Shown in pieces: positions 6,315 to 19,241 of a stretch of DNA of 38,971 bases. Every line of letters starts with the position of its first letter. Position 1 is the first letter of the stretch. The notes beneath the pieces are model-generated. The model did not search any database. It was not told where the DNA came from and worked only from the letters and a program-made list of their open reading frames with translations. This DNA is from Chitinispirillales bacterium (GTDB lineage Bacteria > Fibrobacterota > Chitinivibrionia > Chitinivibrionales > Chitinispirillaceae). The position numbers and the translations under genes are program-made. The DNA lies in NCBI GenBank assembly GCA_031286265.1, contig JAITUP010000122.1:1-38971 (forward strand), written 5' to 3'.

Positions 6315-6752
6315 ATGATCGAGACAACAATGAACAATGTATCCGGAATGGCGCGGGATGTGTCCGACCTGTATCAATTGGTCGCGCTAACCGTCGTCTG
6401 CGTCTGCGGGATTGTTGCGCTGTGGCTGTATACCAAAAAAGGGCTTGCTCGAAATTGTGATGCTGAATTAGCGCGAACCGCACAGCGCAAAGCTGAGCGC
6501 GATAGGGAATTGACGGAACTGCGTAGCGAAATAAGGAAAGGCCGCGATGTGGCTGATGACGTAGGCAAATCCCTCGACAGGCATTTAGAATGTCACAAGG
6601 AATCCGACGACCGTATGCAGCGCACATTTGATCGTCTCGACAGAACGATTAATACGTTGCAAACCAGCGTACACGAAATAGACAAGGGTGTGACCGAAAT
6701 ACGCACCATCGTCAAAGAAAAGTTTAAGATGAGAGGAGAAAGTAGGCCATGA
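6315..6752 (+). CDS. Single-TM coiled-coil protein, putative holin or inner-membrane spanin, 145 aa
   Basis: TM segment LVALTVVCVCGIVALWLYT followed by a long charged coiled coil; located next to the endolysin. Confidence 0.5.
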   Translation: MIETTMNNVSGMARDVSDLYQLVALTVVCVCGIVALWLYTKKGLARNCDAELARTAQRKAERDRELTELRSEIRKGRDVADDVGKSLDRHLECHKESDDRMQRTFDRLDRTINTLQTSVHEIDKGVTEIRTIVKEKFKMRGESRP

Positions 6753-7699: not shown

Positions 7700-8023
7700 A
7701 TGGATCCGGTAACTATGATGTTGGTAGGCACCATCGGCGGTGCGGCGGTAAAAGGCGTAGGCAGCCTAATAACCAATTCGCAAAACAAGCACGAGGCTCG
7801 CCGTCAGCAAGCGACTGCCGATCAAATGGCCAATCGTCAATTCGCATGGGGCCAACAAATGGATCGGTTCAATATGGATATGCAGAACCGCCAGCAGAAT
7901 GAAGTTGAAAAAGTAAATCAACACAGAATAACGCAGGACAGAGTTAGCCAGCTTAATGAAAAGCTGAAGACTAACATGGCCCTGCAGAATCACGTACGTT
8001 CGTTATGGGGAGGTGGACAATGA
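7700..8023 (+). CDS. Phage internal core-like protein, 107 aa
   Basis: N-terminal glycine-rich hydrophobic segment PVTMMLVGTIGGAAVKGVGSLI, then an amphipathic Q-rich helix; resembles podovirus gp14-type internal proteins by architecture. Confidence 0.45.
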   Translation: MDPVTMMLVGTIGGAAVKGVGSLITNSQNKHEARRQQATADQMANRQFAWGQQMDRFNMDMQNRQQNEVEKVNQHRITQDRVSQLNEKLKTNMALQNHVRSLWGGGQ

Positions 8024-9828
8024 ACGCAAACTTCGGAAACTACAGGCCGATAGACTACGCGCATCACAGCACGGCCGGGCGTGATATCGGCAACGCGCTC
8101 GGCGATGCGTTCGCGAATGTTCCTATTGCCGTTAGGGCCGGGCAAGAATGGCAACAAGAAATAGATGAACGTAATGTACGGAAGATGGAAGTAGGAGACG
8201 CGCATGCCTTTTTCCGTAATACGTTTGGGCCAGCCGGCTTCACCAATGTTCCCGATCCACGAAAAGGGGAATCGCTTGATGATTATGTGGCACGTGTCAG
8301 CAAGGCGGCAGATACGTTCTATCAGGGGCTTAGCGAGCGAGATAAAGGTATTTATTACCAAAAAGCCCAAAAGGCCGTTGACCAATATAAAGGCTTGACG
8401 CATTCACAGGGACACCTCGACAGGTTTAACGTGGGAGCAATGCAGAGCAAGCCCCTCGGGGAAGCGCCTAAACAAGGCGGGGAATACGGTCAAACCCCGT
8501 TGGCCGTTCAAGCTATCGATGAGAGGAACGACCTTCCAGGGTTTGGCGCACAGCTTGGGGAGGGTTTGTTTCCGCAAGGCGCACAGGGGCCGAGCCTACA
8601 AGTGGGGAGCAATACACCGATCTCTATACCGCCTATGCCGCAACCGCAAGCTACATCACCGATGAGTTTAGGGCCAATGTCTGCCCCTCAAACTCCGCCG
8701 AGTATGGACGGGCTTGCGCTGAATACGCCGCAACTCCCAACCGGCACCGGAACGCCGGTACCAACCTACGGCAATCATGGAAGCGGCGGTATAATATCAC
8801 AAATGGCGGAACACGCCGAACAACAATTAAGCGCACCGCAATCGCCGCAAGCCACACCGCAATCGTTCAGTGAGCAACTTAATGAAGCTGATCAACGTTT
8901 TGTAGTGGAGGCGGCTAATGAATTACGGCGCAGACATGCGGAAATAGTGGAGATGCACCAGCGACGCCTAATCAGTCCAACGGAGGCATTGGCGGAAGAA
9001 CGCAAGATTAGGGCAGAGTACGCTGCGCTAATGAAAGGCAAGACAGCACGTGAGATACAATTGTTAGAACAGCAAATGGCCCAAGAGCGAGAAGACAATG
9101 TCGCACGGCGAACCCATGTTTGGGGCCAGCAAAATCAAAATGAGTTCATCGATAGAAGAACCGGTAAGGCAATGACACATATCAACCCGGCAGATTGGGA
9201 GCATGTTGATTTTGGTGAAAACTTTGGCGAGAGACAGAGGAGACACGGTAGAAATATGGACCATGCCAATCTCGAAATAAAGAGAGAGGCATTAGCCCAA
9301 AAGGGGACAGGCGGTAGTGGCAGTGACGAATTACTATCCCAAGAAATACAAAGGTATCAATCTACACGTGGTGATTTACGCGCTAAATTATCTGATAAAA
9401 CATTAAGGATACCAGATGACGTAAGAGAAAACATGATGAGGCAATATGAGGCAGAAGGTAGACATTTGGATGTTTTAGCGGATGCGAGGGAGTTTGTAGC
9501 AAGACATAGAGTGTCCCCCGATGAAGGGCGAAGAGCGGCGCAACTGATGCATAGAAACGAGCTATCGTTATTTCTTCCTGCACTTAGACAGAGTGAGGGC
9601 TTACAACAAACTCTAATAGGAATAGCGCGAGATCGGAACGTGACAGCTAAAGAGATAAGAGACGGGTTAATTAAGCACTTAGCACGCAACGAGCGAAACG
9701 GATACGCTGATGATATTTTGGGCTTGAATGTTGCAGAACAAACAAAGTGGATCAATACTTTGTTGGAGAAAAACGGGTATGACTGGGTTCCTGATGAACC
9801 AGTGGGTAACAGGGGGCGGCGCAGATGA
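8020..9828 (+). CDS. Phage internal-virion-like protein, about 602 aa
   Basis: Likely start is the ATG at 8020 (GGGGAGGTGG upstream, overlapping the previous stop) rather than 8005; P/Q-rich centre and helical ends. Confidence 0.5.
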   Translation: MNANFGNYRPIDYAHHSTAGRDIGNALGDAFANVPIAVRAGQEWQQEIDERNVRKMEVGDAHAFFRNTFGPAGFTNVPDPRKGESLDDYVARVSKAADTFYQGLSERDKGIYYQKAQKAVDQYKGLTHSQGHLDRFNVGAMQSKPLGEAPKQGGEYGQTPLAVQAIDERNDLPGFGAQLGEGLFPQGAQGPSLQVGSNTPISIPPMPQPQATSPMSLGPMSAPQTPPSMDGLALNTPQLPTGTGTPVPTYGNHGSGGIISQMAEHAEQQLSAPQSPQATPQSFSEQLNEADQRFVVEAANELRRRHAEIVEMHQRRLISPTEALAEERKIRAEYAALMKGKTAREIQLLEQQMAQEREDNVARRTHVWGQQNQNEFIDRRTGKAMTHINPADWEHVDFGENFGERQRRHGRNMDHANLEIKREALAQKGTGGSGSDELLSQEIQRYQSTRGDLRAKLSDKTLRIPDDVRENMMRQYEAEGRHLDVLADAREFVARHRVSPDEGRRAAQLMHRNELSLFLPALRQSEGLQQTLIGIARDRNVTAKEIRDGLIKHLARNERNGYADDILGLNVAEQTKWINTLLEKNGYDWVPDEPVGNRGRRR

Positions 9829-12800
9829 GTTCAAGAGTTGACGCTATAGCGGAGATGTTTCGTAAAAACCATGAAGAAGCGGAAAGCCGTTCAAGAGTTG
9901 ACGCTATAGCGGAGATGTTTCGCCAAAATATGGGAGATATTGCTATTAACCGAGCAGATATTACTCCTTCCGAATCATTTCATTCATCGACCGACCGACC
10001 GGAGCCTATCGACAACGAGCATACCGAAAGCCAACCCATAGACTACGGGCCACCCTCAACGTTTCCGGCCAACCGTGATGACGACGATGAGCTACCTCCC
10101 GAGCATCTTGGGCGAATTGACAAGCTGGGAGAGTTGACGAGGCCGGTACGTAGTTGGGCGCAGGGTGCGGGTAGGCGGATATTGGGGGGTCTCCACGAGG
10201 CGGCTTCAGCTTTAACGCCGGTCGGGCACATGGTTGAAGCGGCGCGGGGTGTGGCGGATGCCGTAGATATGTATGAGACGGAGTACGCCGAATCATTAGG
10301 TAATCGTGTCCGCCACGGTGCGCTTAATGCGGTAAGGCGGATGCCCGAAGCAAGCAATCCGGTGTCACGTACTCTTCGAGGGTTTGGCGAGACCATGGCT
10401 CATAGTCGGATGGCTTCCCACCTCTCCCCGCTTAGTCGTGAAGAGCAACGCGAGCAAAAACTCCGCACTCCCGCGCCTATCGATCACAGAGAATCAACGC
10501 ACGTCCCCGGTTCTGAATTGGGGCGATTGCCGAGGGGTGTGTATCCCCATGAGCACTATAAAAACGACCCTGATTATTTCAATGAGGACGATTATATTAG
10601 TGCCGAGCAAGCCGAGATGCTCGGTGTTGCCGGTACCGGATATCGCGAGGGCGCGGCAGGGCCGGATATTACGCCGGTTAGATTCGATTTTGAGGGTAGT
10701 GATGGGTGGTTAGCTAAAAACATTTCAAAATACATCCCATCCTTAAACGGTTCTCCAAGTATGAACCGCCAAATTCGCCGAGTAATAGAAGACGGGTTTA
10801 CCGATGAAGAGTATGCGGGTTTCCGAGAGATAGGCGAATATCTTTTGGGGGAAATGCAAGACCTTTCAAGCCCTAACCGTCAACAGGATTTCTATCTTTC
10901 GTTGCCCCGTGAGGATCAAATAGCTTTAGACCACGTGCGATTTGATTCCGGGCGGAGTGTCGCGGCCCGGGCGCAGGCGGGACGCGCCCTTCCCCTTAAT
11001 GCCTATTGGATTCCCGAACGCAGGTCCGAACAGGTAGCGTTAGAAAAGTACCCTTACACTGCCATGGCTGCCGGGATGGCTACTAATGTCGCCCAAACGA
11101 TGGCGGTTGCCGGTTATGTTGGCGCGGGGGTTGGAAAAATCGGCAAAGGCTTGAGCGGCGTTAAAGGGGCGGGGGCGGTCGGCAAAGCGGCGCGAAGTAC
11201 GGGGGACGCGATTGGCGCGGTCAGAAGGGTAACGTATGGAGATACGGTAATTGATGCGTCCTCACTCTTAAGAGGTGCGTTAACGCGCGGAGCTACAGCA
11301 GGGACTATGAGCATGTCGAGAGATGCCGGTAGGGCTACGTGGGAAGAAATGCTGCTGAATGCTACGCGAGCGGCGGCGGGGTCTATGGTGTCTATCGTGC
11401 CGGAAGTGGGTATCAGCGCCGAGGGTATGGGGATATTGCTACAGGCGCCGGCCAGCCTCCTCGTTGATAACGCTTTCGACTTTGCGTGGGGAGTGGCGGC
11501 GAATGAGGATATACATACAAAGGAGTGGTGGATAAACACGACTATGGCAAACGCCGTATCGATGGGTTTTTCGATAAAGGATACGTTTAGCGGCGACACT
11601 TTCAGGGCCCAGCAATTAGCCCATCGCGCCGACGCGGGGGCAATTAAAAGCAAAATCCGCGGATGGAGGCGGGGTAAGGGCAGTGAGGGATTTGAGATTG
11701 TGCCAACTAAGGGTGGCAGGGTAGTCGGATGGGATGAAGCTGAAATCGCCTCACTTGAAAATGCCTATGACCGAGTTCAGACCGAGAAGCCGGACCAGTC
11801 TGTAGATTTTTCCCGAACATGGGGCGGTTCCGCCGAACGGCAACGGGGAGAGCTACAGGATGTATGGCGGGAAGGGACGCAGAGAGGGAGGCCGCAGAGA
11901 GGGGTACGCCATGAGGCCGAAGCGAGGGGAAGGCAGGAAGCCCCCGAAATATCGACAGAGAGGGGCCAGGGAGCGCGTCATGAAGACGGGGCGAGGGTTA
12001 GAGAGGGCGAGACAAGAGACGGCGATTTTGGACGGTCTACGACAGAAAGAGGCGTAGCGACGGTAGATCAGTTGAACGCTCGCCATGAACAACACCGGCA
12101 AAAGATTGAAGATTTTGCGCCTGTAAGGGAAGAACTGGCAGGGTGGGTAGACCCGGAGATTTTACAAAAATATCCCGCAGAGCATAGAGAAACGATAAGG
12201 AGAGATTTGGCAGACATGGAGGCGAAGGTCGTGGCCGGTTCCCTCGCTCCCCACAAGGTAGTATCGGAGGAAAGGATTAAAGGCATATTGGGGGAACTGC
12301 AACGGAAGGGCGTTCCTTTTATTATGGAGGGTACGGACGTTGGCAATCTCGGCGGCCTGAATGCTCACCACAATAATGACCATCCAGCGGCAAACGTCAC
12401 CTTCCGCAAGGTGATAGGCGGCGCGTATATAGACGAGGTGAATAAGTTTGGGGGGATAGTGGCGCGTGTGGGCGGTGACGAGTTCGCTACGCTTTGGGTT
12501 GGCTATGATAATGTGGCCGACGTTAATAATATACGACATGCGATTGAAGGCAAAATACGACAGACGCGAGACGATCTCGGCCTTGGCGATTTGGTATATC
12601 CGAAAAGTCTTAAAAAGGATTATGATTTTGACGGTCATATACGTACCGGTGCGCTTCATACCAACTACGGTTTTGTCAAAGGAGACAACACGAGTAGCTT
12701 TGACGCATTGCTAAGTCGAGCGGATCAGAAAGCGGCCAAGCAAAAAGGGGATGAAATTAGAGCCTTCATTAAAGCACAAAGCGGAGAGGCTACAAAAAAT

Positions 12801-15800
12801 GATATCGACGCGCAAAATAATTCTGCAAAAGCTGAAAATAGGCCTTATAATGATGGTATAGGGAAAGGAGAAAATTATGAGCCAAGAGTCACGGGACAGA
12901 AGGATGGGGATCACGCCGGAAATGTCCATGGAAGAGAGATGGGCAATTCGGAACAAAGGCTTCACTCCCGAACAATTAGAGGAAATGACCAGGCAGAATC
13001 TGAACCAGTTGGATCATTGGAACGGCCGGGGCATATACGCCGGCAAACCGTGGATGGAGCTACAACCGGTGTAGACCGCCCTCTCCCCACCAACTGGCGC
13101 GGCGTTGTCCAAGACCTCTACGAGCGTTTTGGCTTCCCCGCCAAACGCGCCCCGGACCCATTACCGGCGCCGGAAGCCCCCGCCGATTCGCCGCGTGCCC
13201 AAAGGCAACGCAGGCTAAAAGCTGCCAGGCAAGAAACTGCTGAACCTCGTAAGAAAAAATGGCAGGACATCCCCGAAGAAGACCACTCGCCCGAATACCA
13301 CCGCAATACCGTCGCCCACCACCTTTCCGATCAGGTACACGCCGCGCTAAAAGCATCCGGCCACACGGGATGGCTCACGGACTACCGCATCATAACGGGG
13401 CAGCCCATGTTTGCTAAAAATGTCCGTAGGGAGATTACACCCGAAGCGCAGAACGTCATAAACAGAATAGCCGGTCGCGTTTCCCGCGCCTACGATTCTG
13501 ACTTCCAAGGCCGGCAAATGGCAGACGATGGCCAACGCGGTACCCATGTCGGCGATAATCCGTATAATAGGGCGGGGTTAGAAGTGCCTACGCACGGTGA
13601 CGACGTCCGTAATATCCTCGAACGCAACTACATGAGTGGAGACAATTTTTTGAAATGGCGCAGGAGCTACGCCGACGTTCACTGGAAATCAAAAGCCGAG
13701 GCGGAAGCTAACAGCGCGAAATTGTCCGAGGCCTACCGCGTGTTTGAAGAAGAACCCCACAGGCTAACACGGGAGCAACGGCGGCGGATAGAAGACGACT
13801 GGCAGGCCGATTTGGTTGAAGCCATGCGCGACATGGGAGCGCCTGACAACATCGTAGACGCGGTGATAAGGGCTACCGAGGGGGAGAGTAGCGGGGGTGG
13901 CCGTGGCGGGAAACATAATTACAGTATCGGCGAGTACGCTAAAGACGTGGGGTCGGGGAGGGATTACGGGGATACTGGCATCGGCAGGAATTATTTTCAG
14001 GGGCAGGAGGCTAAGGCGGATATGTATAAGCATGGTGTGAGCGCCCAAGAAGCGCGCAGTAAACTCAATGATTTGCTTAGTGAAGATCGGGTGTTGTTGG
14101 TAACAAGCAAGGACGGCAATGAGGCGAGGATAAGCCGCTCTACTGTCGGTAAGATGCTTTCAGATACCGCAGTAAACAAATCTGTAGACAATGGTTTTAC
14201 TGCGAGGCAACATTATGCAGTTGTTTCTGATATTGAAAACGTGTATCGCAATTCTACCAGGGTTTCAAGTAGCCCCGACAAACACGGCTACCCTGATGTT
14301 ACCATACATAGATTGGCTACTCCATTAGGCTTTAACGAAAGTGCAGCGTACATTACGGTAAAAGAAACGATACAAGGCGGGAATAGGGTACATAGCGTAG
14401 AACTTATAGAAATAAGGAAGCTTGGTAGCACCTTTCGGACCGGCGGGAATAAACCCGACGACTCCTTCCTACCAAGCTCCTCTACTACTAATCTACGACA
14501 TTCCGGCGAGAAAGTCAATAGCAAAAGTAAAAATTCTTCAAATACCGGCTCCGATGCTTCCAAGGGTGACTACAATGACCGTCCGCAGTCCGGCCCGTCC
14601 GGTGAATCTTCCGGCCTACGCCCCATCGAGATGCCGGAATTAGTAACAATTGTGCGGGAACTCTTGGATGGCAATTCTCCCCGAATCATGCGCTATATGA
14701 GGGTACTCGAGGCACGGGGCGCAGCCCATCGTGTAAAAGACGAGAACGGTAACTGGCAATGGAAGCGTATCGATCTTGCCGCGGATATTTTCAAAGACCC
14801 GGGGCAAGCCGCTAAGGTGCTGGCGCATGAGATAGGGCATATTATGACACGGTACGGCGGGGAAGGCAAATACAAGGCCATTGCGCAGAAAATTAAAAAC
14901 GCTTCGCACCAGTTCAAACAATTTATCGAGGACGACCCCAACGCTACAATGCTAACGGCCAAAGATCGCCTACGTATTAAAAAAGAATCCGAGCAGCTTC
15001 TGAAGCACGGCGAGCGGTGGATAGACGAGATAATTACCAAGGAGACACGGTACACCCCGGACGAGATCAAAGCGATATGGAATAGCGTAGATATGGGCAA
15101 AGCAGACCCTATACTGTCGGACTACATCAAAGGATTAAACAGCGCTTCGAAGAAGGCGCTTGTCACCGCCGTCATCAGGAATAAAGCGACACCGGACTAT
15201 GTCCCCAAGAGAACGGAGCAGGTGGCTACGGGGAACAGATTCCTCGACACATCCAAGCCAACGCCGGCAGAGCTCGCCACCGCCTACCGCCGCGCCATCC
15301 TCAAGGAAGCCGAAGCGCGGAGGTTGACGGAAGTCAAAATCCTCTACGATGAATTGTACGCATTCTCCAAAAAATGGCGTCCGTTTGATGAGAGCAAAGC
15401 AAATTTCAGGCACCGCAAGTATCGGGCGAAAGGCGAGGAAGTTTTCGCCGATGCCATTTCGGCATACATCAATGATCCAGCATTTTTAAAGCAACAGTGT
15501 CCTAACTTTTGGCGGGTGTTCCACGGGTGGGAAGGAAGCCGAAGCCCATTTACCGAGGCACATCGTGGGATTCAGCAGTTGCTTGGGCGTGGGGATGATG
15601 CGGTGCAAGACGCAAGAATAGCCCAGTCCATCAAAGGATTCGATGATAAATTACAAGAGAAAATAGATGAACGTAAAGCACGGGAAGCAAAGAAGAAAAA
15701 AGGGGTGGAGAGGGGCAAGGCGGTGGTAAAAGAGGCTGGCAGAGCGCTTGTGGACAAATACCGCAGCATACTCAACGCCGAAAGGATTTTAGAGGGGGAG

Positions 15801-18050
15801 GGCATTCTCAAGGGCGCGGCCAAGAGAGCATACTATAAATTCCGCTCCCTCGGCCACGTGGCGGGGCAGCAGGACGCTTACACAAACGACACCGCGAATC
15901 GTATAAGAGATATACTTTATCATAACGATCAGGTAGGCAAAGCGAGCGACCAACTCACTGATAAAGACTTTCAGGATGTTGGCCTATACGGGAAGTACAA
16001 CCGTATCCTCAACGGCGACCGTAGTCACCTCGCTAATCCCGATGGACATTCCCCCGAAACGGCGGCGGCCGCGCTGGCGCGGATGAAACGGAGGTGGGGA
16101 GACGAACGGTACAACAGGGTGAAGAAAGCGGCGGAAGCCTACGCGGAGGTTCGCGACAAACATATTATTCCTGTTCTTGAAAAGAGTGGAATATTGACAC
16201 CGGAACTCTTAGCAAAGATAAAAGCGAACAAGGATTATATGGCCTTCGACATTGTACGGGATTTTTACGATCTTCACGGCGACCACGTTACCAACTCCAT
16301 TTACAGCGGCGGTTCCGTTACCGGGCTTAAGGGGCAGATGGGCACTTTAAGAAAAATCGGTAACCCGTTTACCGCAACTTACTTGAACGATCTCGCTTTA
16401 CTCCGCCTCGCCGCACGTAACGATGCCATACGGACGGCGGTAGAAAACGTAAAAGGGCATGAAAATCTTACAGGGATAGTGGTACGGGAGAGCAAAAGAC
16501 AAAGTAATGGGGAATTTAAGAATGTGGATAATGACGATATGCGCACCGTCTATTTCAAAGACAAAGGAAAACTCGTAGCATACGACATAAGCCGGGACTA
16601 TGCAACCGCCCTAATGGAAGCCCCAAAGCCACATGCCGTGACTATGGATATATTGAAAGGCATTGCGGCAGTCCAACGAGGACTCTTTACCGTCTACAAT
16701 CCAAAGTTCCACGTCCGAAACGTAGTACGGGACTTCAAGCAGTTCCACGTGAACTTGCCGGGCCACATGGTCACCAAAGCCCGGAGGATTCTTGAAGCGT
16801 TGCCGGAAGCGTGGGCTTTTAGGATGCACGGAAAATTGAGCGCAGACTTGGAAGCTCTCCTAATGCAACGGGGGTTGCTGTCCGGTTCATCCCACGAAGA
16901 ACACAACATATTGGGATTTGACCGCGCTATTGAAAACGCGCTCGCGGGTCTTGGCGGCGATCTGCAAAAACAAAAAAACTGGGCTTCGAGGTTTTTGAAA
17001 AAAGCCACAAACTTCTTCCCCGAGTTCCTTGCGTTGGAAGAAACAACAATGAAATTAGCGGGGTACAAACACCTGAAAAAGGTATATCCCGACATGGACA
17101 GAGCGGAACGGATGCACTTGGTGCGTACGCAGGTGGGAACATCGGATATAGCTTCCGGCGGCACTTTAAGGCCGTGGACAAACACACTGTTGTTATACTC
17201 AAATTCGACTATTCAGGGGTGGTACGGGTCGATGGAGGCGGCAAAACGTGATCCCCTTAACTACGCTACGAAATTCATGATGTACACTGTCGCCCCGAAA
17301 GCATTCTACACTTTGGCGAAGTATGGATTACTTGGTGACGCTTTGCGAAATAATAACCTTATTAGCGACGCCTTGGATGCTGCCGGCGTACCCATCCATA
17401 ACGCAATCGCGGGTAACTTATTTGGTGAACATGTTAGCGATGCGCAAGATTTAATTAATTACTGGGAAGACGCTTTTAACATGATCCCCGACTATTGGAA
17501 AGCGCGCTACGACGCAGTACCGCTACCGATAAGGACGTACGACGGCAGACAGCTTTTTATCCCCGTCCCTAAAAGTTTTGAACAGCAAGTACTTTCAGAA
17601 GCCATCTACTACGCGCTCGATGCCATTGTAGCCAAAGCGGTAGGCGAGGAATTTACGCCTATGGAAAAGTTAAAGGCAGGCGGAAAGGCGCTCGGCGCGG
17701 TTGTCTCCGCTAATCCCATAGGAGACAGTAGCCTACTGCCTATATTTAAGTTGGCCGCTGTGTGGGGAGATTTTGCACAAGGGAAAAATCCATACGACAG
17801 CTTCTACGGAAGACAAGTTATATCGAGAGATAACTACTCAAACAGCCTCGCCGGTTCATTCGGAGATATGAGTAGATGGACGTATAAGGCCATCGGCGGA
17901 GAGGTATTTTGGATACTCCCCAAAGAACTTAGCTGGGAATGGTTTGAAAGCCTGAGCGCCGTCGAGAAAGCGCACCACATCCCAATCCTCGGCGGCCCAG
18001 CAAGCGCGATAATCAGAGCCACACCGAAAGAGGGGGGGAATTGGAGATGA
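9825..18050 (+). CDS. Giant multidomain phage (polyvalent-type/ejected) protein, 2741 aa
   Basis: ATGA overlap with upstream ORF. Contains a duplicated N-terminal motif, a Gly-rich hydrophobic region, GGDEF domain, HEIGH metallopeptidase, a toxin-like/LPD-like region and a C-terminal region resembling polyvalent-protein LPD38-type sequence (VYNPKFHVRNVVRDFKQFHVN). Confidence 0.8.
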   Translation: MSSRVDAIAEMFRKNHEEAESRSRVDAIAEMFRQNMGDIAINRADITPSESFHSSTDRPEPIDNEHTESQPIDYGPPSTFPANRDDDDELPPEHLGRIDKLGELTRPVRSWAQGAGRRILGGLHEAASALTPVGHMVEAARGVADAVDMYETEYAESLGNRVRHGALNAVRRMPEASNPVSRTLRGFGETMAHSRMASHLSPLSREEQREQKLRTPAPIDHRESTHVPGSELGRLPRGVYPHEHYKNDPDYFNEDDYISAEQAEMLGVAGTGYREGAAGPDITPVRFDFEGSDGWLAKNISKYIPSLNGSPSMNRQIRRVIEDGFTDEEYAGFREIGEYLLGEMQDLSSPNRQQDFYLSLPREDQIALDHVRFDSGRSVAARAQAGRALPLNAYWIPERRSEQVALEKYPYTAMAAGMATNVAQTMAVAGYVGAGVGKIGKGLSGVKGAGAVGKAARSTGDAIGAVRRVTYGDTVIDASSLLRGALTRGATAGTMSMSRDAGRATWEEMLLNATRAAAGSMVSIVPEVGISAEGMGILLQAPASLLVDNAFDFAWGVAANEDIHTKEWWINTTMANAVSMGFSIKDTFSGDTFRAQQLAHRADAGAIKSKIRGWRRGKGSEGFEIVPTKGGRVVGWDEAEIASLENAYDRVQTEKPDQSVDFSRTWGGSAERQRGELQDVWREGTQRGRPQRGVRHEAEARGRQEAPEISTERGQGARHEDGARVREGETRDGDFGRSTTERGVATVDQLNARHEQHRQKIEDFAPVREELAGWVDPEILQKYPAEHRETIRRDLADMEAKVVAGSLAPHKVVSEERIKGILGELQRKGVPFIMEGTDVGNLGGLNAHHNNDHPAANVTFRKVIGGAYIDEVNKFGGIVARVGGDEFATLWVGYDNVADVNNIRHAIEGKIRQTRDDLGLGDLVYPKSLKKDYDFDGHIRTGALHTNYGFVKGDNTSSFDALLSRADQKAAKQKGDEIRAFIKAQSGEATKNDIDAQNNSAKAENRPYNDGIGKGENYEPRVTGQKDGDHAGNVHGREMGNSEQRLHSRTIRGNDQAESEPVGSLERPGHIRRQTVDGATTGVDRPLPTNWRGVVQDLYERFGFPAKRAPDPLPAPEAPADSPRAQRQRRLKAARQETAEPRKKKWQDIPEEDHSPEYHRNTVAHHLSDQVHAALKASGHTGWLTDYRIITGQPMFAKNVRREITPEAQNVINRIAGRVSRAYDSDFQGRQMADDGQRGTHVGDNPYNRAGLEVPTHGDDVRNILERNYMSGDNFLKWRRSYADVHWKSKAEAEANSAKLSEAYRVFEEEPHRLTREQRRRIEDDWQADLVEAMRDMGAPDNIVDAVIRATEGESSGGGRGGKHNYSIGEYAKDVGSGRDYGDTGIGRNYFQGQEAKADMYKHGVSAQEARSKLNDLLSEDRVLLVTSKDGNEARISRSTVGKMLSDTAVNKSVDNGFTARQHYAVVSDIENVYRNSTRVSSSPDKHGYPDVTIHRLATPLGFNESAAYITVKETIQGGNRVHSVELIEIRKLGSTFRTGGNKPDDSFLPSSSTTNLRHSGEKVNSKSKNSSNTGSDASKGDYNDRPQSGPSGESSGLRPIEMPELVTIVRELLDGNSPRIMRYMRVLEARGAAHRVKDENGNWQWKRIDLAADIFKDPGQAAKVLAHEIGHIMTRYGGEGKYKAIAQKIKNASHQFKQFIEDDPNATMLTAKDRLRIKKESEQLLKHGERWIDEIITKETRYTPDEIKAIWNSVDMGKADPILSDYIKGLNSASKKALVTAVIRNKATPDYVPKRTEQVATGNRFLDTSKPTPAELATAYRRAILKEAEARRLTEVKILYDELYAFSKKWRPFDESKANFRHRKYRAKGEEVFADAISAYINDPAFLKQQCPNFWRVFHGWEGSRSPFTEAHRGIQQLLGRGDDAVQDARIAQSIKGFDDKLQEKIDERKAREAKKKKGVERGKAVVKEAGRALVDKYRSILNAERILEGEGILKGAAKRAYYKFRSLGHVAGQQDAYTNDTANRIRDILYHNDQVGKASDQLTDKDFQDVGLYGKYNRILNGDRSHLANPDGHSPETAAAALARMKRRWGDERYNRVKKAAEAYAEVRDKHIIPVLEKSGILTPELLAKIKANKDYMAFDIVRDFYDLHGDHVTNSIYSGGSVTGLKGQMGTLRKIGNPFTATYLNDLALLRLAARNDAIRTAVENVKGHENLTGIVVRESKRQSNGEFKNVDNDDMRTVYFKDKGKLVAYDISRDYATALMEAPKPHAVTMDILKGIAAVQRGLFTVYNPKFHVRNVVRDFKQFHVNLPGHMVTKARRILEALPEAWAFRMHGKLSADLEALLMQRGLLSGSSHEEHNILGFDRAIENALAGLGGDLQKQKNWASRFLKKATNFFPEFLALEETTMKLAGYKHLKKVYPDMDRAERMHLVRTQVGTSDIASGGTLRPWTNTLLLYSNSTIQGWYGSMEAAKRDPLNYATKFMMYTVAPKAFYTLAKYGLLGDALRNNNLISDALDAAGVPIHNAIAGNLFGEHVSDAQDLINYWEDAFNMIPDYWKARYDAVPLPIRTYDGRQLFIPVPKSFEQQVLSEAIYYALDAIVAKAVGEEFTPMEKLKAGGKALGAVVSANPIGDSSLLPIFKLAAVWGDFAQGKNPYDSFYGRQVISRDNYSNSLAGSFGDMSRWTYKAIGGEVFWILPKELSWEWFESLSAVEKAHHIPILGGPASAIIRATPKEGGNWR
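9829..9922 (+). repeat. 34-bp perfect direct repeat, 60-bp period
   Basis: gttcaagagttgacgctatagcggagatgtttcg at 9829-9862 and 9889-9922; encodes SRVDAIAEMFR twice. Confidence 0.95.
12316..12790 (+). other. GGDEF (diguanylate-cyclase-like) domain within the giant phage protein
   Basis: PFIMEGTDVGNLGGLNAHHNNDHPAANVTFRKVIGGAYIDEVNKFGGIVARVGGDEFATLWVGY...NYGFVKGDNTSSFDALLSRADQKAAKQKGDE; GGDEF codons at 12471-12485. Confidence 0.8.
12877..13074 (+). CDS. Candidate nested overlapping gene, 65 aa (+1 frame inside the giant ORF)
   Basis: AAAGGAG (12864-12870) 6 nt before ATG; product MSQESRDRRMGITPEMSMEERWAIRNKGFTPEQLEEMTRQNLNQLDHWNGRGIYAGKPWMELQPV has natural composition. Confidence 0.5.
   Translation: MSQESRDRRMGITPEMSMEERWAIRNKGFTPEQLEEMTRQNLNQLDHWNGRGIYAGKPWMELQPV
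14630..15540 (+). other. Zinc metallopeptidase-like domain (polyvalent-protein type)
   Basis: VLAHEIGHIMTRYGGEG (HExxH) and a downstream EEVFADAISAYINDPAFLKQQCPNFWRVF block that could supply the third ligand. Confidence 0.7.
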
Positions 18051-18111
18051 TACGGTAAACGAGTAAAAAGGGTGTGTATGGTGCCGTAGCAGTTTTTGGT
18101 TTAAGTTTTAA

Positions 18112-18132
18112 TTTTGTAGCTGTTTTGTAGCT
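18112..18132. repeat. Tandem direct repeat TTTTGTAGCT-G-TTTTGTAGCT beyond the phage gene block
   Basis: 18112-18121 and 18123-18132 are identical; includes a GTAGCT/AGCTAC dyad; lies in the gap between convergent phage and host genes. Confidence 0.5.
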
Positions 18133-18218
18133 ACCTTGCCTACGCTTGGATGCACAAGCGCGGTTAAATCAATGAGTTACAGGAGGTGGAATAATATAAT
18201 ATATACCATCATCTATTT

Positions 18219-19241
18219 TCAAGCCCCATTTTTTTTGCTACTGGATTTGTACATTTTTTCAGTAACGAAGAAAAAACCGCCCAATGAACTTATGGCTATG
18301 GCGATCAGCGACGCCAAAAAACCCATGATGAAAGCCGCATCGGGCTGAAAACCGGCAAGGGCGAAAAGTACCCCGCCAAACGTCTCCCGCACGCCAAAAG
18401 GCAGCGGCACGGTCATGAGCATGGAAACGATCGGTATGAATATGAAAAAATATTGGAAATTCTCGGCGGTCACGAGGTTCAAAGAAGCCGCTATGAGAAT
18501 GTTTGAGCCAATGCGTAAAAATTGTGTCAGAAACGCAAGCATGGCTACGGAGGCGAGCAGTTTATAATCTTGCGCCTCAAAAAGCATCTCGGAAATGATC
18601 TCTTTTATTTTCAACTTTCGAAAAAAGGCGAATCTGTCGGTGATGGAAAAAAAGAAAATCTGTATGGGTTTGAAAATGAGGAATAGCATAATGCCGGCAA
18701 AAAGCGCAAACGCGGCAAAAAGCGCGATTACAGCCGTTTCAATTCTGCCGTGAGTGAGCATTCCACGACTCAAAAGAATTATGCTCCCCACGACCGCGAA
18801 GCCGCAGAGAGCCCAAAGCCCCGCGAACCTATCTAAAAACGTAGCGGCAAAACCGACTTTCCCTTTCCCGTCACGCGCGCGTATGGATGCGACCTTAACG
18901 GCATCTCCCACAATTCCGCCCATGATAAAATTGTTGAAAAACATCCCCACAAAATAGAGCTTAAACGTGCGGGAAAACGGAAGAGACAATCCCCTATTTC
19001 GCAAAAGCCAATACCACTGCACGGAGCCAAGCCATATACTCACAAAAAATACGACCGAACCGGCAGCAAGCCACAACGGATTGGCGCCGGCTATCGTGGT
19101 GGCGATTGTGCCCCATCCAAGCCTCCTGATTAAAAAAGCAATTATCAGGACGGTCGCCAACAGTTTGGCCGATGACGATATTATTTTTCGCGTATGATTT
19201 TTTGAAGCCACTCTTCTACCTTTTGCGCACTCGCGTCCCAT
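18219..19241 (-). CDS. YbhN/lysylphosphatidylglycerol synthase TM-region-like flippase family membrane protein
   Basis: Multi-TM with the family pattern GWGTIATTIAGANPLWLAAGSVVFFVSIWLGSVQWYWLLRNRGL...FNNFIMGGIVGDAVKV. Confidence 0.8.
   Translation of the reverse strand: MGRECAKGRRVASKNHTRKIISSSAKLLATVLIIAFLIRRLGWGTIATTIAGANPLWLAAGSVVFFVSIWLGSVQWYWLLRNRGLSLPFSRTFKLYFVGMFFNNFIMGGIVGDAVKVASIRARDGKGKVGFAATFLDRFAGLWALCGFAVVGSIILLSRGMLTHGRIETAVIALFAAFALFAGIMLFLIFKPIQIFFFSITDRFAFFRKLKIKEIISEMLFEAQDYKLLASVAMLAFLTQFLRIGSNILIAASLNLVTAENFQYFFIFIPIVSMLMTVPLPFGVRETFGGVLFALAGFQPDAAFIMGFLASLIAIAISSLGGFFFVTEKMYKSSSKKNGA

Follow-up and report, generated by a model that had tools for sequence, protein, structure and literature searches.

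The window examined here, a 38,971-nucleotide stretch of a Chitinispirillales genome, carries phage genes at its left. Its longest open reading frame (9825-18050, forward strand) encodes a giant protein of 2741 aa; no further phage gene separates it from the host junction, and its start overlaps the gene upstream by 4 nt. This upstream neighbour (8005-9828, forward strand) specifies a 607-aa phage protein, and the part of the window preceding the giant also holds a weak major-capsid match, a tail-fibre-like segment and an M15 endolysin. A small phage protein encoded at 6315-6749 has a detectable relative in another locus (L135, E 1e-11) and represents one of the few genes shared besides the giant. 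Chromosomal genes follow from 18219, and the right phage-host junction zone, which carries no strand, spans 18051-18242, with synteny to congeners beginning at about 18243. In six congeners a glycosyltransferase (GT2) gene adjoins the LPG synthase gene or sits nearby. This pair is split in the window genome, where the GT2 ortholog lies at the end of another contig, so the window contains an integrated prophage's right end. The contig beside the displaced GT2 gene (L048 about 930-996, G000:C194 end) presumably ends in group II intron-like sequence. A tRNA was sought at the phage-host junction and none was found.

Several features of the giant identify it as a polyvalent protein, namely its length, a large polyvalent protein-associated domain 3 (LPD3; 14049-14384, forward strand; Pfam PF18798, 43 bits, above the cut-off), a GGDEF fold, a HEIGH zincin-like motif (14826-14840) and the prophage structural and lysis genes upstream. 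The motif lies in a C-terminal region (14784-17348, forward strand) for which phmmer and tblastn found a homologue in the giant that Pelagibacter phage EXVC032P Baldr encodes (phmmer i-E 3.9e-34, residues 1654-2508). The homology covers the zincin and the C-terminal half; tblastn with the window's GGDEF domain detected no counterpart in the pelagiphage giant, in which respect the two proteins differ. The pelagiphage giant is preceded by a 606-aa protein, matched in size and place by the 607-aa protein of the window, and no sequence similarity was detected between these two. LPD3, the zincin, the pelagiphage-like C-terminal half and the gene order together suggest delivery, and the giant is probably carried in the virus particle. 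An earlier note on this DNA, made from the sequence alone, had described a giant phage virion-type protein. The phage-type polyvalent protein is borne out, and the succession of a 607-aa protein and a giant, as in the pelagiphage, fits an ejected virion protein.

The GGDEF-fold core, delimited by hhalign, AlphaFold and Foldseek, comprises residues 806-989 (12240-12791; this and the features below are on the forward strand). Translation places an intact GGDEF motif at residues 883-887 (12471-12485), as the earlier note had reported, and the composition of the 2741-aa protein gives a chance expectation of about 0.003 for such a motif. The signature TDVGNLGGLN, which had been taken for an upstream metal-site-like segment, occupies 12333-12362, and its alignment with PleD agrees with that description: D838 corresponds to the metal ligand D327, N846 to the base contact N335 and Gly843 to K332. 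The downstream block that had been noticed, NYGFVKGD followed by SRADQKAAKQKGDE, is present at about 12663-12755 within the same uninterrupted reading frame. In the alignment, TNYG (12660-12671) is the counterpart of the SxG beta strand, and the C-terminal GGDEF helix SRADQKAAKQKGDEIR (12714-12761) carries K974, equivalent to K442, while the R446 equivalent is lost. Beyond the core, a tail with the pattern YNxxIGKGExYE (12846-12881) is conserved in the closest relative only, and this stretch is possibly a processing or docking element.

Single-sequence comparisons of this domain are weak. The Pfam GGDEF model scores it at 13-13.4 bits, below the curated cut-off of 23.8, while PHROG 9661, which in searches of genomes acts like a GGDEF family, matches the window protein with an E-value of 0.003. 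A phmmer search of the PDB returned two matches, both diguanylate cyclase or GGDEF proteins, at non-significant E-values of 0.1-0.2, and a two-sequence profile found nothing significant there. When 23 GGDEF domains from the host's phylum were combined into a profile, the window domain scored 15.7 bits against it and its closest relative 13.6; one of 1365 scored shuffles of the window domain did better (17.1 bits), while all shuffles of the relative stayed at or below 8.8. The full protein has weak matches or none in Pfam and PHROG, and a single shuffle exceeded the local profile score, which could be taken to mean that the motif is a coincidence devoid of GGDEF homology. This reading, however, is refuted by profile-profile comparison, structure and reciprocal searches, and we regard it as scarcely credible. 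Homology was settled by the addition of one close relative to the hhalign query: the resulting two-sequence phage family aligned to nine host GGDEFs with a probability of 96.1% and an E-value of 3e-9 over 142 columns, reaching the final helix. In the reverse direction, a profile of the five-member group described below found ordinary chromosomal GGDEFs with E-values down to 1e-9. The weak matches of the two-sequence profile within the phylum (L014-L016) include ordinary chromosomal GGDEFs.

Structure prediction points in the same direction. An AlphaFold model from the two phage sequences was of low confidence (pLDDT 46) and ranked GGDEF structures at the top of the PDB, none of them significantly. 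When the alignment was extended to 27 sequences, by adding 25 viral GGDEFs to the window domain and its closest relative, pLDDT rose to 93 and pTM to 0.87, and the best 50 PDB matches listed by Foldseek were all GGDEF structures or GGDEF-containing (best E 3.8e-8). GGDEF sequences were already in the alignment behind this second model, so it is no independent test of the GGDEF assignment; the positions of its helices and strands agree with the unassisted two-sequence model. Homology and fold place the domain in the GGDEF family and the Pfam curated cut-off leaves it outside. The window domain is a real but strongly remodelled GGDEF-fold domain in a prophage giant.

The extent of remodelling is apparent at the active site. 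Relative to 25 ordinary viral GGDEFs, the window domain keeps 12 of 34 near-invariant positions, defined as columns at least 88% conserved among those proteins, and the closest relative keeps 10. Residue roles have been described for D327, N335, D344, E370, K332, K442 and R446 of PleD (PMC12943098). Aligned to these, the window domain retains a metal site in D838, D885 (equivalent to E370) and E886 (the last acidic residue of the motif), the base contact N846 and the phosphate contact K974, so that both the metal-site Asp and the GG(D/E)EF motif (G883-F887) of a diguanylate cyclase are in place. Lost are the DxLTGL start, the K332 equivalent, now Gly843, and the R446 equivalent, which is no longer Arg; of the three phosphate and transition-state residues K332, K442 and R446, only K442 has its equivalent kept, as K974. 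Of the pair that contacts the base, N335 has its equivalent in N846, whereas the guanine-specificity position (PleD D344, GacA Ser348) is occupied by N857 (12393-12395), an assignment of moderate certainty since a 2-residue insertion makes the loop register less secure there. Across the phage group this position holds Asn or Asp. The inhibitory RxxD site is absent, as the earlier note had stated, its position being taken by KFGG (12444-12455) and by ELGG in the closest relative. The same note's premise of an ordinary GGDEF domain was too simple: fold and metal carboxylates hold, but the site is remodelled, and the changes at the K332, R446 and D344 equivalents had gone unmentioned there. Read conservatively, these alignments point to a nucleotide site that is functional but whose chemistry is uncertain.

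Such a site invites comparison with active diguanylate cyclases. The protein might raise c-di-GMP in a new host cell or a lysogen and so alter motility, attachment or superinfection, a suggestion to which the intact GGDEF motif, the missing inhibitory site and a host c-di-GMP network of seven GGDEF matches and one EAL match lend some substance. Against it stand Asn in place of the guanine-selecting Asp and the loss of the transition-state Lys and of Arg446, and we consider it unlikely. Alternatively, the domain may be catalytically dead and serve the giant as a nucleotide sensor, a structural module or a dimerisation unit, in the manner of FimX-type proteins or the GTP-sensing CC_3396. Sensor roles are established for degenerate GGDEFs (PMC12943098), and the lost K332 and R446 equivalents and DxLTGL, the Asn at the D344 position and the GSDEY motif of the closest relative would all accord with it. 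The metal carboxylates, N846 and K974 are nevertheless retained throughout the five giants that make up the group considered below, and the signature is near-identical in two proteins that share 41% identity, which suggests constraint on the site. On balance a dead domain seems somewhat unlikely, if a serious contender.

Within the phylum, a close relative of the window domain occurs in one other genome only, of the same genus, and is 41% identical. Its host, the MAG Chitinispirillia bacterium Co191P1bin56, belongs to a class which we take to be assigned to the Fibrobacterota. The relative lies in a prophage giant of 4468 aa (contig L010, 6950-20353) which, like that of the window, combines LPD3 with a zincin motif, here HELSH, and is about 41% identical over the domain and its flanks. 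It differs from the window giant in its length, its GSDEY motif, an Asp at the 344 position, a different domain order and additional PBECR and ART domains: PBECR5, a sub-threshold PBECR3 and four ART-PolyVal stretches accompany two LPD3 stretches.

We scanned for the pattern D..NL....N, 108 nt, G.(D/E)E(F/Y), and obtained five further giant ORFs (L136-L140). The NL, the N and the spacing were part of this pattern, while GG and PK lay outside it. Three of the five (L137, L138 and L140) carry NLGG[LF]N with a PK motif; L136 and L139 are more canonical. The window itself shows D-x-x-N-L-G-G-[LF]-N, a downstream PK, no I-site and a giant phage ORF. None of the five pattern matches is in an ORF shorter than 1164 aa, whereas among 75 ordinary viral GGDEF ORFs one is 1000 aa or longer (Fisher p 2e-7), and most of the five contain InPase, ART-PolyVal, PBECR3 or ddrB-ParB domains. 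In a phylogenetic tree, the window, L010, L137, L138 and L140 fall on one side of a branch with support of 97/91, which is still 92 (SH-aLRT) when the signature columns are removed. The branches are long, for which reason this grouping is suggestive; a grouping of all seven giants was not rejected (p 0.45). In all five signature giants the metal site and the equivalents of N846 and K974 are present, and Asn occurs at the 857 position in three of the five, always with GGDEF and never with GGEEF. L138 and L140 connect the window domain with ordinary GGDEFs: both pass the Pfam cut-off (33-41 bits), and a search with the L140 domain retrieves annotated GGDEF proteins (E 1e-5). Both also carry an InPase (inorganic pyrophosphatase) domain N-terminal to the GGDEF, an order which may fit removal of the pyrophosphate released by a cyclase reaction. 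No relatives were recovered by tblastn of the window domain against phages and plasmids or by scanning viral and genome contigs with the single sequence, and two sets of candidates, L035 from a signature scan and L050-L053 from a TGALHT scan, were dismissed as chance matches.

The Asn at the specificity position recalls the Hypr enzymes, in which the D344 position governs base choice and Ser or Thr there occurs only alongside GGDE[F/Y] (PMC6456294). By the same logic of position and motif, the coupling of Asn857 to GGDEF in three of the five group members might indicate a promiscuous cyclase with another cyclic dinucleotide product, for example one resembling cGAMP. The window shares with the Hypr cGAMP synthase GacA a substitution at the guanine-specificity position together with Asp in the GGDEF motif, but it has Asn where published Hypr enzymes have Ser or Thr, more of its substrate contacts are changed, and the loop register is uncertain. 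This proposal appears improbable to us.

Several known systems delimit what is new here. GGDEF domains in phage polyvalent proteins, and their use as delivered nucleotide-signalling weapons, were proposed in 2017 (Iyer et al., PMC5512222), and the phage-delivered signalling idea of the earlier note, with which fold and carrier type agree, is therefore not new. The Acetonema longum protein WP_004096050.1 described there also places a GGDEF in a giant multi-domain prophage protein with a zincin and other conflict domains, and the role in nucleotide signalling proposed for it and its kind is the same as for the window. What would distinguish the window domain from those polyvalent GGDEFs, the Acetonema sequence itself left aside, is its score below the Pfam threshold and its remodelled substrate loop. 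With canonical diguanylate cyclases (PF00990; PleD, WspR, DgcB) it has in common the fold, the metal Asp, the Asp/Glu-Glu pair and the equivalents of N335 and K442; unlike them it lacks DxLTGL and the I-site, has K332 replaced by Gly, D344 by Asn and R446 lost, and has additional residues in the loop that follows the first metal Asp and ahead of the SxG strand. The kind of system is thus known, and the novelty is a remodelled variant that is sub-threshold for Pfam, has a shared signature and has an altered site. A limited search of the open literature found no paper on phage diguanylate cyclases.

Taken together, the alignments and models favour a divergent GGDEF-family nucleotidyl cyclase or nucleotide-binding domain in a phage polyvalent protein, which would act on nucleotides in the host. 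We assign this nucleotide-acting role, the most likely of those considered, a probability of about 60%. Canonical synthesis of c-di-GMP specifically is less likely, since the K332, R446 and D344 equivalents are all changed. The giant would be packaged in the virion and ejected along with the DNA, and the zincin may then free the GGDEF domain, an idea raised previously (PMC5512222). In the newly infected cell the domain would bind purine nucleotides and may act on host nucleotide signalling, through c-di-GMP or a related cyclic dinucleotide, free of product inhibition. Diguanylate cyclases function as dimers, which a virion protein might not form; this, the mere 12 of 34 near-invariant positions kept and the GSDEY motif of the closest relative weigh against our explanation. 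Interference with CBASS, as a target in the present host, is not favoured because a search of eight genomes of the host genus turned up no CBASS-type SMODS synthase, a result that bears on one defence class only. A bolder version, in which a phage-specific NLGG[LF]N GGDEF lineage is packaged in virions and, within minutes of the start of infection, produces some cyclic or linear nucleotide distinct from c-di-GMP that serves as a signal or decoy injected by the phage, is doubtful.

If the domain is active, the phage would supply the cell with a second-messenger enzyme made in advance, able to act ahead of all phage gene expression and without product inhibition, and the control of biofilm, motility and defence by cyclic dinucleotides would be tied directly to the content of the virion. 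The signature of the group offers a simple route to further members missed by Pfam.
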